From Quercus robur (taxonomy: Eukaryota; Streptophyta; Magnoliopsida; Fagales; Fagaceae), in the NCBI RefSeq assembly GCF_932294415.1, contig NC_065541.1, positions 31,480,790 through 31,544,789 of the forward strand: DNA of 64,000 bases, read 5' to 3'. The first letter of the stretch is position 1. Each line of letters opens with the position of its first letter. The notes under the pieces are model-generated. The model had not been told where the DNA came from, made no database searches, and worked only from the letters and a program-made list of their open reading frames with translations. The position numbers and the translations under genes were made by a program. Below, piece after piece: positions 11,366-28,328 of the stretch.

Positions 11366-12075
11366 TATCTATTCATAAGGATTAATTATTTATTGTAATA
11401 AAAACATAACTAAACTATAAAATAAATAAACTATAAGAATATCTATTTTATTATGGTTTACCAATCATGCCCTACGTAATTTTATAAAAAAGTAAATCAT
11501 ATTTTAAAAGAGAAAGAGGCACATACTTATTTAGTTATTTTTATTTATAAAAATGCTATTTTATTTTTTGTGAAGAGAATATAATAATAAAGGTATTTTA
11601 GTATTTTAAAAACATAATTTAGTTGGGTTTAGGTACTCATGGGCCATTGCATAAAATCTAAATCTTTCCCAAACTTGCAAGCTAGTTTAAATATATGAGC
11701 TCAAATCCACCCCAAAACCATTAAAACAATCTCAAACCCTTATTATTAAGGTCGGGTTGGATTGAACAACCCATTAAACCTGACCCATTGCCATTACCAT
11801 CCTTGACTACAAACTGCAAGTGCTTACTATCTTCTATCTTAACCTTGACCTAAAGTCAAATCAAGATTCCAACCGTAGACGAAACAAAGACACATTTTCA
11901 CACTCCTTAAAGATAATAATAGAAAAAATAAATTGACTATATTAGTAAGCACATTCTTATATTTTTGGAGAGATTATGGCTAACTTTAGAAAAATAACAA
12001 AACCATATTGGTAAGCACAATCTTATATTTTTAGATAGATTATGACTAACTTTAGGGGTATTTACTAAAGTTATT
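11366..12075. other. AT-rich intergenic stretch
   Basis: No gene seen. It contains the right arm of the outer miniature element to about 11,480, then unclassified AT-rich DNA. Confidence 0.5.
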
Positions 12076-12076
12076 A

Positions 12077-13423
12077 GGCGAAACTATATTATTAGTTCCT
12101 GAAATTTATCTTATGTGTGCAATTGGTCCCTCAAGTTTCAAGTGAGCACAATTGGTCCTTCAAGTTTTCAAGATGAGCAATATAAGTTTTTCGGTTAACT
12201 TCCGTTAGTGGTGTTGCTTACGTGATTAACGGAATAATGACCTAGCATTTTTTAAAATGATGTGGAATTTATTTTTATTAAAAACTTACAAAAATTAAAT
12301 TTACATATAAGAAAGAAACTAGAGAAAAAAAAAAAAAAAAAATGTCCATTTGCAATATGATTTATTCATCAATACAATATTTACAGTCACCAGCAGCAAC
12401 AGTAGCAGCTTCTGCGCTCTCTTGTACTCTTGTAGCTAGCTCCGGTGCATGTTCAAGGCCTACCTGCACTTCACCCATGGCGGGTCAACGTTCGGCTCGA
12501 GGACAAGGTACTGGAGGTCTAGAATGATTGATGGTGCCACGTCAGACGAGGACATAGTGACTCTAGTGTACAAGCTCGAAGATATCTGCGAGCTTCTCAG
12601 ATCGTCGCATGCGAGTATTGTGAAAGAGGTCTCGGAGATATTCTTGAGCTTCTCAGATCGTTGCATGTGAGTATTGTTATACAAAAGGTATAATTGTGAT
12701 TATGAATTTGTGTTTTTGATTTGTGGTGTTTGGATTTGGGGATTGGGTTGGGAGTAGATCTTTGTATTTTATTTTTTTGTTTTTCTGTTTGGTTGCTCGG
12801 AAAGTGAGGGGAAATAAAGAATTAAGAATTTGGGTTTTGGGTATTTGGCTATTGGGAAATAAGTTTTTTATTTTTATTTTTATTGTTTTAAGCTTTGTTT
12901 GATGAATAATCTTTTTCTTAATTTTTTGTAATTATCTAATGCGGCTCAAGATGTTAAGAATCGTGTGAATTGAGTTATTTTATTACGTTGAAATTGCTTT
13001 TAAATCCATACAATGAAAAACGTCAACCACCATGGGTGAACTGCAAGTAGGTCGTGAACATGCACTGGAGCTACAAGAGAACAAGAGAGCACAGAGGCTA
13101 CTACTGTTGCTGCTGGTGACTGTAAATATTGTACTGATGAATGAATCAGATTGCAAATGGAGTTTTTTTTTTTTTTTTTGGTATCGGGTTAGGATAAAGA
13201 TATGAATTGGAATGGGTCTAGTTTGTAAATTTAATTTTGTAAGTTTTTAATAAAAAGAAATTTCAAATCTTTTTAAAAAATGCCAAGTCATTATTCCGTT
13301 AGCTACGTAAGTAACACCACTAACAGAAGTTAACCAAAGGACTTGTATTGTTTATTTTGAAAACTTGAAGGACCAATTATGCACATAAGGTAAACTTTAA
13401 GAACTAATAATATAGTTTCGCCT
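12077..13423. mobile_element. Long-inverted-repeat transposon with captured host exon (Pack-MULE-like)
   Basis: The ends read GGCGAAACTATATTATTAGT and, inverted, the same sequence. The arms run about 12,077-12,492 and 13,019-13,423, so each inverted repeat is about 410 bases, including an extra ~28-base repeat in the left arm. The flanks AGTTATTA (12,069-12,076 and 13,424-13,431) form a 7-8 bp duplication, the exact size depending on one ambiguous base. Long inverted repeats suggest a Mutator-like element. The spacer (12,493-13,018) contains a coding piece of a host trafficking gene. No transposase is present, so it is non-autonomous. Confidence 0.8.
12509..12670 (+). pseudogene. Captured MTV1-like ENTH/VHS exon fragment
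   Basis: Translates as YWRSRMIDGATSDEDIVTLV, then YKLEDICELLRSSHASIVKE and VSE. I recognise this as the start of the ENTH/VHS-type domain of the plant trans-Golgi and vacuolar trafficking protein MTV1, whose N terminus has the YWRSRM, TSDED, YKLEEICELLRSS and SIVKE blocks in this order. Past VSE the match ends. A 32-base segment (12,590-12,621) is repeated at 12,646-12,677 and supplies an unrelated tail ending at a stop near 12,668. The piece lacks the rest of the domain. It is read as a captured host fragment; whether it is transcribed is unknown. Confidence 0.75.
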
Positions 13424-13431
13424 AGTTATTA

Positions 13432-15170: not shown

Positions 15171-16370
15171 TCAACTGTGGATTCCACTCCCTTTATCAGA
15201 TCCCCCAATTAGTCCTTCTCTCCTCAGCTTCTCTTCCTTCGATTTCCTACAGAAAATGACCCAAGAATTTACCTCCAAAGCTATACACACACCAAGCAAG
15301 GTAGAGAGGCCCAAACAGTAGCCTAACTTAGCATAAGACCTGCCTGCTCCCATTACTTCAAATCCTTGAAAAACATTCACAACCCCAAGAATCACACAAG
15401 AATACCCAACAAAATGGTGGTAAGATTTCCAATACTTCCTAAACTTGTTTGTAGTTTTAGGCCTAAACAATAGTGCAAGTGTTTGTAGCGCTCCTAAGCA
15501 AAATGCTGCAAACCCAAGTTTCCTGTGAAGTCCATATTCCACACCAGGTGACAGCTCCCCAAGCCTAATTCCAATTGCAAATCCAACAGTTCCTAGGAAA
15601 AATGCAAACAATTGCATGCCTGCATGAGCATAAAACCATGCAGGGCCTAGTGCCTGAATGTGCCTAAGGTAGCGTGCTGTCACGGCTCCAATAGGCAATA
15701 TAAGGCCCCATGAGATTGCATTTATGATACCATGCGCGGTTTTGAGTGTTTTGATGTTGTCATGTTGGGCAGTAGCTGAGCCTGAGAGGACATCTATAGT
15801 GGCAAAGGAGGAAAGGTCGTTAGAGGTAGTGGGATGAATGGTTGGTGAGTAGCCTTGGACATAGAGTCCACGGTTCCACACATGGTTGATCTTTGTTTTA
15901 TTTGGTACAAGTTTGAATGTGGCATAGATTTGGATTGTGGCACCATTGTGAACTGTGGCCATTTTGCCACCATATAAGGTGGCAGAGGAAGAGAGGAGGT
16001 GGATGTCAAGGGGCCGAGAAAGGAGTGGGTTCTTTTGGAGCTTTACAGTTGGGTCTAGGATGTATGGCAGTAGGACAATTTGGCCGGAATTTGGGTCTGG
16101 AAAGGCGATTAAGGCACGGGTTCCGGTCATCTCAGGGGAACTAGGATTGATGCCCCATCCAACCCAGCCTGAGGGTGAAATGAAGGTACCAAAGAAAACA
16201 AGGTCTAAAGTGGCATTGTGGGGGTGGAAGGTCCATGCTATAGAGGCTTGGTGGGTAGGGAGTGTCGTGCATTTTTGGAACGTTTTGGTGGCAGTGGTGG
16301 TGGTGCAATGGGCAGAAAATGCAACATGAAGATTAGAGGATAGGAGGAGGAGGAAGAGGAAGAAAACCAT
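15171..16370 (-). CDS. DOMON and cytochrome b561 domain protein
   Basis: An intact 399-residue single-exon gene. Residues 1-20 form a signal peptide ending near AFSA. A DOMON domain spans about residues 42-195 (GWVGWGINP near 68-76, INHVW at 161-165). A cytochrome b561 core follows from about 205 to 375 with several membrane spans. Candidate haem-ligand histidines are H213, H249, H282 and H318/H319. The tail is short, basic and cytosolic (RKSKEEKLRREG). Family members are membrane redox proteins thought to pass electrons from cytosolic ascorbate across the membrane to the apoplastic DOMON. The size is normal for the family. A second, DOMON-only relative lies at 26,903-33,879. The start ATG heads directly into the signal peptide. 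The exact paralogue is not assigned. Confidence 0.95.
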   Translation of the reverse strand: MVFFLFLLLLSSNLHVAFSAHCTTTTATKTFQKCTTLPTHQASIAWTFHPHNATLDLVFFGTFISPSGWVGWGINPSSPEMTGTRALIAFPDPNSGQIVLLPYILDPTVKLQKNPLLSRPLDIHLLSSSATLYGGKMATVHNGATIQIYATFKLVPNKTKINHVWNRGLYVQGYSPTIHPTTSNDLSSFATIDVLSGSATAQHDNIKTLKTAHGIINAISWGLILPIGAVTARYLRHIQALGPAWFYAHAGMQLFAFFLGTVGFAIGIRLGELSPGVEYGLHRKLGFAAFCLGALQTLALLFRPKTTNKFRKYWKSYHHFVGYSCVILGVVNVFQGFEVMGAGRSYAKLGYCLGLSTLLGVCIALEVNSWVIFCRKSKEEKLRREGLIGGSDKGSGIHS

Positions 16371-17753
16371 GGTGATTGTAGCTAGAAGAGTAGTGAGGAG
16401 TAGAAGTGGCTTGAATGGGGTGGGTTGCTTTTGTTAACATTTATGAGTTTGGTAATGATATTTTTGTGAGGGAAGGAGAGTGATGGGTCATTATGGCTAT
16501 TATGCATTTTATGAGAATAAAGTGTGTGCTTATCTTTGAAGTAAAGGCAGTACTTAGTGTTTGTTTGGTGGAAATAGGAATGAAAGTTTTGTGTTGTAAT
16601 CGATTTTAAGTAGTGGGTACATAATGTGGTTATACAATGATGTGATTATACATGGGTTTGTCCTTTGCGCTCCTGCTTATTAAAGACTAAAGAGATGTAA
16701 CTTTCTATATTCTTGTTGGCTAAAATGGGTAGTGGAAGATTCTCAATATATTGTGCTTCGCTTTGAAGCTAAGTTACCGATGGTGAGTAAAATAGTGCAA
16801 GTCTTGATTCTATAGTGGGGGTAGCTCTCACCAATGGGATTATGTCTATGAACATTTGCAGTGATAGATGCCCAGTTAGGAACTCTTACCAATTACCGCA
16901 CACTGCTTAACTTGTACTTACTAATATTTCCTTATCTTATAATTTTCATGGTAATTAACTTCTTGTTGCAGTTAATTTGTATGCCTGTTTTAACCTCAGC
17001 TGAAGTCTAATCATTTTATGATAAATTTGTTTTAAGCTCGTCTTAGTTATAGTGATATAATAATAAACCTTTATTGGAGCACTGAATGGGTGCCAAGGGA
17101 TGCCCAACTCTAATTATTTTTGAAGGAACAATGATCACATGTAACCAACATATTTTGGTTACAACTTACAAATTGATTAATTTATATGTTTTATCTTATT
17201 ATTTAAATTAAATAATGGGTTTTATATTGATCCAGGTTGAGGAAAGATGTTCAAAACGCTTTTAAATAAATTAGTTGTGCCAGCGTTGGCTCAAATGATA
17301 TATGCAATGAAAGGTAATTCTCAAAGTGTGTATAATCTATAGTTAGAGAAGAATTAATTACGTAAAATTTCTTCGCACTACATCAGCTAGAACAGAGGGG
17401 AGTTGCGTTAATTTGTTTTGGCAAAAAATACTTTTTAGAATGATCTAGAATATATTTATATTCTTCAGCTTGCTTATAATTTCGTTAATATATATTAACC
17501 TCTTCATATGTTCTATGCGCTTATCAAGATGGGCTTTTTCTTTTCTTTTAATTTTATTTTATAGTAATAAAAATAACATTTTTAAGTTGTTACTGTACAT
17601 GAATAATTATAGTTTAAGACTGCAAGTATAAAATGTGTCTTAATGACATTAGGGTTTTTTGGTGTGCAACTATATAGGCATACATAATCCCTAAGTGTGT
17701 AAAGCTCTCCGAATATACGTTTCATTTAGAAAATAAAGAACCACACACACTCT

Positions 17754-26503: not shown

Positions 26504-27411
26504 CTTTATCTGTGTAGACCAAGCAAGTATATTGGATTAACTATGGTTTTAGGATGTCATCTCATGAGACGGAAGTTCACTTGAATGTAGGGGTTATGAA
26601 CTAAAGAAGAAAGATATTTTGATAGATTATTTTTGCTAGATTTGTAATTCCTGATCTTTTGGCCCTTTCATTCTTTTTTGTATAGACCAAGTAAGTTTAT
26701 TGGATAAACTGAGCTTGTAAAAATCTTTGCAAAATGTGGAACATCCATGGATAAGAATATTTGCAAGTAGTTGATGGTGTGATGTAGTAGAATGGAGCTA
26801 GTTACATTAAAGTAGACGTCACTGAAAATTCTTATAGCTGCAGAGTCTACATTAATGATCATGTGAAAACATGTAATGTTGGTAAGCATATTCATAGCAA
26901 AATTAAAGTTTTGAAGGAGGCAAACTTGAGGACAGCGAAAGAAAATCTAGAATACCTACCGATTGAATGTTGGGGCCTGATGTTGGATGCATCTGAGGGA
27001 TATTGTTTATAACTGAACTTCCAGCTTGCCAGACGTGATTAACAGTTGTTCCATTGTTTAGTGGGCCCACAACACCAAAAATAGTCATTTCATTTTTGGC
27101 ATATGTTGCTGAGATGTTTGAAACCCGAAAGCAAAGAGCTGCTTGTTTCATTGAAGGGTTGTAACTGGTTATTGGTGTTGTATAAGCTGTCATAGTCCCA
27201 TTAGCATTGAGAAAAGCAACAACAGCCTGCGATCCAATCATGCTTGTTCCAGTTGGATTGATTGCCCATGCAATCCATCCTGTAGAAGTTTGAGTTGCTC
27301 TGTAAGCAATCTGAATGCTTTTGGTGGATGGAATGTAGTTCCAGTGCATATGGCTCTGTAATACTGGAAGGTCAATGCAGGAATTGAATACTTGGTTAGT
27401 TGAAAAGGTGT

Positions 27412-28328
27412 TGTTAGTTTTTAGACCCTTTAAACAATTGATTAAACCTAGGTAATTAGCCAAGTTGTTACTTAGTTCAATTAAACAAGTCTAGGTTATC
27501 ACAATATAAAAGATCAAATCATGCAAAGCAGCGGAAAATAAATAACGCAACGATATGATAACCCAGGAAAACCAAACCGGTAAAAAATTTAGGGAGGATT
27601 TAATCTAGCTATCCTCAAGGTAAAAAGCAAATCCACTAGAAAGAATCGAAGTTCATACAATAAGACTTACAAGCTCCCACGCTCGACTTCTTATTACTAC
27701 CAACTAGTAGAACTTATTGACACGACCACGTGCAAGCTCTGAATCCACGGACTCCTTCTTTCTTTGGCCTTTGCAGAACACAAACACCCCCGTTTGTGAC
27801 TTTGAGATCCCACTCAAAGGTTTTGCAACACAAACTCTCCTGTTTGTCACTCCAAGACCACCCTTGAAGGTTTAGATCATCAACACCTTTGATGACTAGA
27901 GAAGGCAGCAACTTCTACAATACCGAATCTTGAGATTCTTCAAGGAATAATAACGGTAGAAGACATAAGAGAGTTTTTTAGAAACAAAACCCTAAATACA
28001 AAAGAGGCACATTTTTTTCTCTCTGAAAAGTTACATAAAAATGTGCTTAGGGTTTCCTTTATATACTGGGAGAAGTAGATTAGAAACCCTAATCCTAAAT
28101 GGGCTTGAACTGCTGTTTGAGCTTAATTAAAATTCTGCAGATATGACTTTCGATCGATCGAGCCTATCTTTTGATCGATCGAACCAGACAGATTATGAAA
28201 TCTTCTTCCTGCAGCTTGTTTGAATCATCTTGAGCATTGTCTAATAATACCTATAGACTCTAAGATCTATATCTAGACAAGTTTGTATTCACGATTTGCC
28301 AATTGTTCTAAACATTTAGAACCTAACA
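27412..28328 (-). repeat. LTR of the Copia-type element (3' LTR)
   Basis: 917 bases with TGTTAG...TAACA ends. It pairs with 32,886-33,799. It carries GATCGATCGA repeats near 28,150-28,185, one of which is absent in the other LTR. Confidence 0.92.

Follow-up and report, generated by a model that had tools for sequence, protein, structure and literature searches.

Mutator-like elements (MULEs) have target-site duplications of 9 to 11 bases and terminal inverted repeats (TIRs) of ca. 100 to 500 bp, according to the excerpt of PMC3310237 used here, and siRNAs are associated with their long TIRs in the corresponding excerpt of PMC6446971. The Pack-MULEs of rice, tomato and Arabidopsis, such as PM-ZIBP of tomato (PMC3310237, same excerpt), are non-autonomous elements of ca. 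1 to 1.4 kb with long TIRs, target duplications of 9 to 11 bases, internal gene fragments and several copies, and the element analyzed here is like them in all these respects. It is unlike those covered by that excerpt in having two unrelated captured genes, one of which contributes to the inverted repeat by its presence in each arm, and a visible duplication within the element. MULEs with multiple (tandem) TIRs, from the same excerpt, likewise carry extra repeated sequence on the inner side of the outer TIR, but in our element this extension is captured kinase coding sequence and not a second TIR. Animal Pack-TIRs, in the excerpt of PMC8277862, have microhomology of 1 to 36 bp (median, 2 bp) at their breakpoints. 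Microhomology of this short kind, which template switching during gap filling would be expected to leave at joins, was also found here; however, we measured it at an internal rearrangement instead of at capture joins, and in a plant MULE family whose parent genes are on another contig. The literature searched contained no paper combining Pack-MULE with MTV1, nor Pack-MULE with FERONIA.

The window, that is, the whole stretch of 64,000 nucleotides that was analyzed (G000:C37:31480790-31544789), belongs to an assembly of 785.7 Mb in 42 contigs. We conclude that the element within it is very probably a non-autonomous Mutator-like transposon, a Pack-MULE with pieces of two genes (MTV1 and a FERONIA-like kinase) and, most likely, no selected function. 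It is a well-documented kind of transposon and not a new system. Its value lies in the fact that its build can be read, with both capture sources present in its own genome and a sibling that retains exon sequence no longer present in the window copy.

Borders of the element and its TIR family

The original prediction placed a Pack-MULE-like element, with inverted repeats of ca. 410 bases and a short target duplication, at positions 12077 to 13423. Arm alignment, target duplication and family matches confirmed the element but moved its right end inward by one base, giving 12077 to 13422 (1,346 nt, no strand assigned), with GGCGAAACTA...TAGTTTCGCC as its ends. The arms, at 12075 to 12483 and 13027 to 13424, had the predicted size (ca. 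409 and ca. 398 nt, within the TIR range of MULEs). Their alignment had 59 columns with gaps, and 329 of the 374 columns without gaps were identical (88%). The outer part of each arm corresponds to the core of the family TIR, on the plus strand at 12077 to 12364 (ca. 288 nt common to other family members) and on the minus strand at 13143 to 13422, as delimited by arm alignment and family comparison. The target duplication was found as well, in the form of unstranded 9-mers immediately outside the ends, AAGTTATTA at 12068 to 12076 and TAGTTATTA at 13423 to 13431, which match at 8 of 9 positions. The single mismatch counts against it, and a control of 506 mispaired flanks from its TIR family gave the same 8/9 in 13 cases and 9/9 in none. 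When joined and compared with the 786-Mb genome, the flanks of the element matched only the window's own two flanks, and no empty site was found. Immediately to the left of the insertion site, at 11924 to 12055, a 66-nt unit is present in two tandem copies (85%). Further along the window, open frames on the minus strand at 15171 to 16433 and 26903 to 27490 resemble DOMON/cytochrome b561 genes, judging from their translations read by eye.

The arms occur elsewhere in the genome as a TIR family. Searching with the whole element yielded at least 143 matches, a lower bound because 40 of the 672 first-look candidates were scored, and the terminal motif, allowing one mismatch at most, had 284 occurrences genome-wide versus 8 for the reversed-pattern control. 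From the 34 loci taken (L010 to L043), the 22 two-ended ones were tested together with the window copy, making 23 elements; the 12 left out were one-ended or incomplete (L010, L025, L026, L029, L032, L034, L036 to L039, L041 and L043). One or both ends of L011, L013, L016, L023 and L042 were placed by lengthening the match a few bases. Identical 9-mers flanked 12 of the 23 elements, six (the window included) had 8/9 matches, and two more (L013 and L018) had identical 10-mers. A target duplication of 9 or 10 bases with no more than one mismatch, in the size range of MULEs, was therefore present in 20 of the 23 two-ended elements versus 13 of the 506 mispaired flanks. Some of these duplications are made up of low-complexity runs, and L015, L016 and L021 (3 of 23) had no good one.

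No transposase was recognized in family members when the open frames of L015, L019 and L020 were read by eye. Domains of MULE transposases are frequent in the genome (1,249 first-look candidates, 150 of them scored, with those listed exceeding the curated cutoff). Inspection by eye of the first-placed terminal-motif matches and of the transposase matches listed, the latter from these 150 of 1,249, gave no autonomous partner with a transposase between these TIRs. The unusual length of L015 (3.0 kb) is probably explained by LINE-like open frames, again read by eye, and the longest stop-to-stop frame of the window element is shorter than 90 codons. What the element does contain, instead of a transposase, is fragments of non-transposon host genes, as in Pack-MULEs.

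Captured MTV1 and kinase sequences

The first of these fragments had been predicted to be the start of the ENTH domain of an MTV1-like vacuolar trafficking protein, and both best matches agree with that. The peptide of 12509 to 12637 matched PDB entry 1vdy/2dcp over all 43 residues (E value of 2e-16), 2DCP being the ENTH domain of AtMTV1 in the excerpt of PMC9828777, and the other match is exon 1 of the parent MTV1 gene in the same genome; a Pfam search with the short fragment gave no match. The parent is located on C5 at ca. 19.473 to 19.4745 Mb, where the two exons looked at are open and match the MTV1 ENTH domain at 84% (exon 1) and 87% (exon 2). Comparison of exon borders showed the element to be colinear with the parent across the exon 1/intron 1 border, with 291 of 357 columns identical (82%). 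Homology begins at GTACTGG of exon 1, the parent's first ten codons, from the ATG to the codon preceding YWRSRM, being missing. From there, the plus strand of the element has exon 1 from YWRSRM to VSE (12508 to 12637, by the PDB and parent comparisons), the last bases of the exon (12679 to 12687; IVKQK in the parent, IVIQK here) ending in CAAAAG, and, from the retained GT donor at 12687/12688, the 5' part of intron 1 (12688 to 12889). Since intron 1 sequence is present, the capture was of genomic DNA and not of a spliced messenger copy. The following plus-strand segment (12890 to 12983) is common to the sibling L010 (on C40) and four other family elements, and a genome search with 12842 to 13180, all 8 candidates scored, gave no source for it outside the TIR family. 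L010 has the same left junction as the window element and retains the exon sequence that the window copy lacks.

A fragment of this kind might also be what is left of an ordinary MTV1 pseudogene, produced by segmental duplication and surrounded by inverted repeats by chance. Segmental duplication of MTV1 did occur, as a duplicate of its 3' part exists at C4:44.6 Mb (L073, G000:C4:44596500-44603500; 95% over 3,157 columns), but exon 1 has no counterpart in that duplicate, and the TIRs enclosing the window piece are found across the genome together with target duplications, which makes this reading extremely improbable. A decayed normal gene at this locus was ruled out by the MTV1 gene on C5 and the genome-wide TIR family. 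Judged from this one genome, the original prediction was refuted neither by the best match, which is MTV1, nor by a normal full gene at the locus, the fragment being within a TIR element.

The second captured gene, overlooked in that prediction, is by its sequence a FERONIA-like receptor kinase, which makes up the inner third of both arms. In the left arm, the kinase C-terminal coding sequence is on the minus strand (12365 to 12500), reading RAER*PAMGEVQVGLEHAPELATRVQESAEAATVAAGDCKYCIDE; in the right arm, it is in sense on the plus strand (12984 to 13142), reading YVEIAFKSI..TMGELQVGREHALELQ.. with frame breaks. The genome search with 12842 to 13180 gave 10 matches, namely family elements and one outside place, C5:64210219-64210326. 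Along similar lines, left-arm sequence (12343 to 12510) gave eight candidates, all scored: five belong to the window element, L010 or L027, and the other three are located on C5, at 64.21, 64.24 and 64.04 Mb. The gene at 64.21 Mb (L072) matched the left arm at 78% over 138 columns (E value of 1e-25) and has a frame of 394 codons that matched the FERONIA kinase in PDB (E value of 3e-92) and Pfam PK_Tyr_Ser-Thr, while the other two places encode a kinase of the same type with 57 to 60% protein identity. At the protein level, the PAMGEVQVGLEHAPELATRVQESAEAATVAAGDCKYCIDE stretch (12365 to 12484, minus strand) was 65% identical to residues 321 to 353 of the L072 kinase (E value of 1e-13); the left-arm kinase peptide had no match in PDB. 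Over aligned bases, the two window arms were 81% and 73% identical to L072. The source is probably the C5:64.21 Mb gene or a close relative of it, so that for both fragments a parental gene or its near kin lies elsewhere in the genome. A shorter kinase piece (E values of 5e-5 to 0.005) was found in L015, L017, L023 and L027, which have no MTV1 exon but carry MTV1 intron 1 with the window element's intron junction.

With the kinase piece in both arms, the longer inverted repeat of the window copy is the family TIR plus a kinase tail on each side. We propose that an ancestral element with the ca. 288-nt family TIRs took up DNA from two host genes, namely the exon 1/intron 1 region of MTV1 and the 3' end of the coding sequence of a FERONIA-like kinase, and that the latter came to be placed in both arms in opposite orientation, lengthening the inverted repeat to ca. 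400 nt. A MULE transposase would then have mobilized the element in trans, and insertion at the present site with a 9-base duplication would have been followed by decay.

Internal duplication, reading frame and predicted hairpin

An internal duplication of 32 bases had been predicted beyond the point where homology ends. The duplication is real, but it is ca. 48 nt long, and MTV1 homology resumes after it as the last exon 1 codons and intron 1. Positions 12575 to 12622 and 12631 to 12678 are identical at 40 of 48 sites (a repeat search reported 12575 to 12621 and 12631 to 12677; 47 nt, 85%), the second copy repeating, on the plus strand, the KLEDI...SIV codons of MTV1 and running straight into the last codons of exon 1. 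In this way, 35 nt (12638 to 12672) replace 33 nt of the parent exon (FILKRLENKSP), and the reading frame is shifted. The joins have exact microhomologies of 2 and 5 nt; among 15,502 random junctions from the parent exon region, microhomology of at least 2 nt occurred in 16% and of at least 5 nt in 0.6%. These values fit template switching during gap repair, by which the 35 nt may have been copied from nearby exon sequence. The replacement probably took place inside the element after capture, a timing that rests on the three sites that distinguish copy 1 from the parent. Copy 2 has the copy 1 state at two of them (GATAT and CAT) and the parental state at the third (GTG), and both copy 1 states are also found in L010, which has no duplication and keeps SEFILKPLDKK; a post-capture origin is therefore favoured but not proven. 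The result is a template-switch-like scar that is legible base by base.

The rearranged region includes a chimeric frame of 73 codons on the plus strand (12449 to 12670), made of antisense kinase, MTV1 and the frame-shifted duplicate. If expressed and under selection, it would be a new protein gene, in favor of which are the joining of arm and MTV1 codons in one open frame and the excess of synonymous change in the MTV1 piece. Parent and window differ there at 12 positions in 43 codons, nine of them third positions, and dN (0.046) was below dS (0.331; NG86), which could suggest constraint on the captured piece. However, the shifted duplicate brings the frame to an end, L010 breaks it with an in-frame stop (Y*RSRM) and a 5-nt deletion, and the comparison covers only 43 codons; taking these points together, we consider such a gene highly improbable. 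We tentatively attribute the low dN/dS to constraint on the parent together with decay of third-position CpG sites (assessed by eye), keeping in mind that a comparison of parent and window piece does not by itself tell on which of the two the constraint acted.

The presence of the kinase tail in both arms leads directly to a prediction of hairpin RNA. The predicted fold of the element had an energy of −604.8 kcal/mol with the arms paired, a value with no shuffle control at this length. In the hairpin of a read-through transcript, the stem would contain kinase sequence and the loop MTV1 sequence, and an action on kinase genes would for that reason be more natural than one on MTV1. The element could then be a regulatory locus whose hairpin is diced into small RNAs silencing the FERONIA-like kinase cluster (from the stem) or MTV1 (from the loop). 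Consistent with this are the paired arms, the kinase coding sequence in the stem, the siRNAs reported for long MULE TIRs and the longest exact matches (to L072, 20 nt in the left arm and 24 nt in the right; to MTV1, 26 nt). On the other hand, few long words are shared with MTV1 (16 21-mers and 5 24-mers), and the hairpin is not conserved, part of the kinase stem being absent from L010; overall, we regard a regulatory role as unlikely. A broader scenario, in which MTV1 is a capture hotspot, the TIR family turned the kinase tail into an inverted duplication and the element is a source, still at an early stage, of hairpin-derived small RNAs directed at the kinase cluster, with MTV1 as a passenger in the loop, seems to us quite unlikely from these sequences. 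Under the preferred reading of a two-gene Pack-MULE, an end-to-end transcript would still be predicted to form a hairpin and give rise to small RNAs directed mainly at the element itself and possibly at the kinase cluster. Reading frame, dN/dS, sibling comparison and fold gave no evidence of a selected function, and a passenger transposon is our default reading.

Other MTV1 fragments in the genome

A search with the parent's exon 1 and the start of intron 1 (all 14 candidates scored) returned the parent and 13 fragments, the window piece included. Eleven of the 13 sit in the TIR family of the window element: the window copy, L010 (assigned to the family by the one arm that the TIR query recognized), four intron-only elements and five with an exon piece of 75 to 81 nt. 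These last (L012, L014, L018, L021 and L053) form a second Pack-MULE type with the same TIRs and with flanks different from those of the window/L010 type; in L014, a 15-nt MTV1-like snippet, TGATCGACGGTGCCA, adjoins the arm (by eye). L053 has some changes in common with the window/L010 type that are absent from L012, L014, L018 and L021, and the TIR family may have captured MTV1 sequence once or more than once.

The two remaining fragments are without family TIRs. One (L054) is a weak intron-like match, and the other, at C40:38.87 Mb (L052, G000:C40:38873000-38876000), is a 63-nt copy that is 97% identical to the MTV1 start region and contains the ATG. The L052 copy adjoins sequence rich in short inverted repeats, a third context for MTV1 sequence.

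A protein-level search of the genome gave 31 matches up to an E value of 10, fourteen of which (E value of ≤0.001) were exon 2 pieces located neither in the parent nor in its C4 duplicate. We took 14 loci (L074 to L087), which are those places plus one weaker one. All 14 matched parent exon 2, none had a family TIR, and 12 were without inverted repeats at the threshold used. Judged by sequence, the exon 2 pieces belong to a different repeat from the window's TIR family, possibly, as a guess, a Helitron-like one. One host gene has thus supplied sequence to at least two repeats, this TIR family being one of them.

The exon 2 places include C37:22.77, C38:21.43, C39:37.25, C1:49.94, C5:61.19 and C35:19.79 Mb. 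A stop at the same codon was seen in 11 of the 14 loci, and the best-aligned copies have at least 2.6 kb in common.
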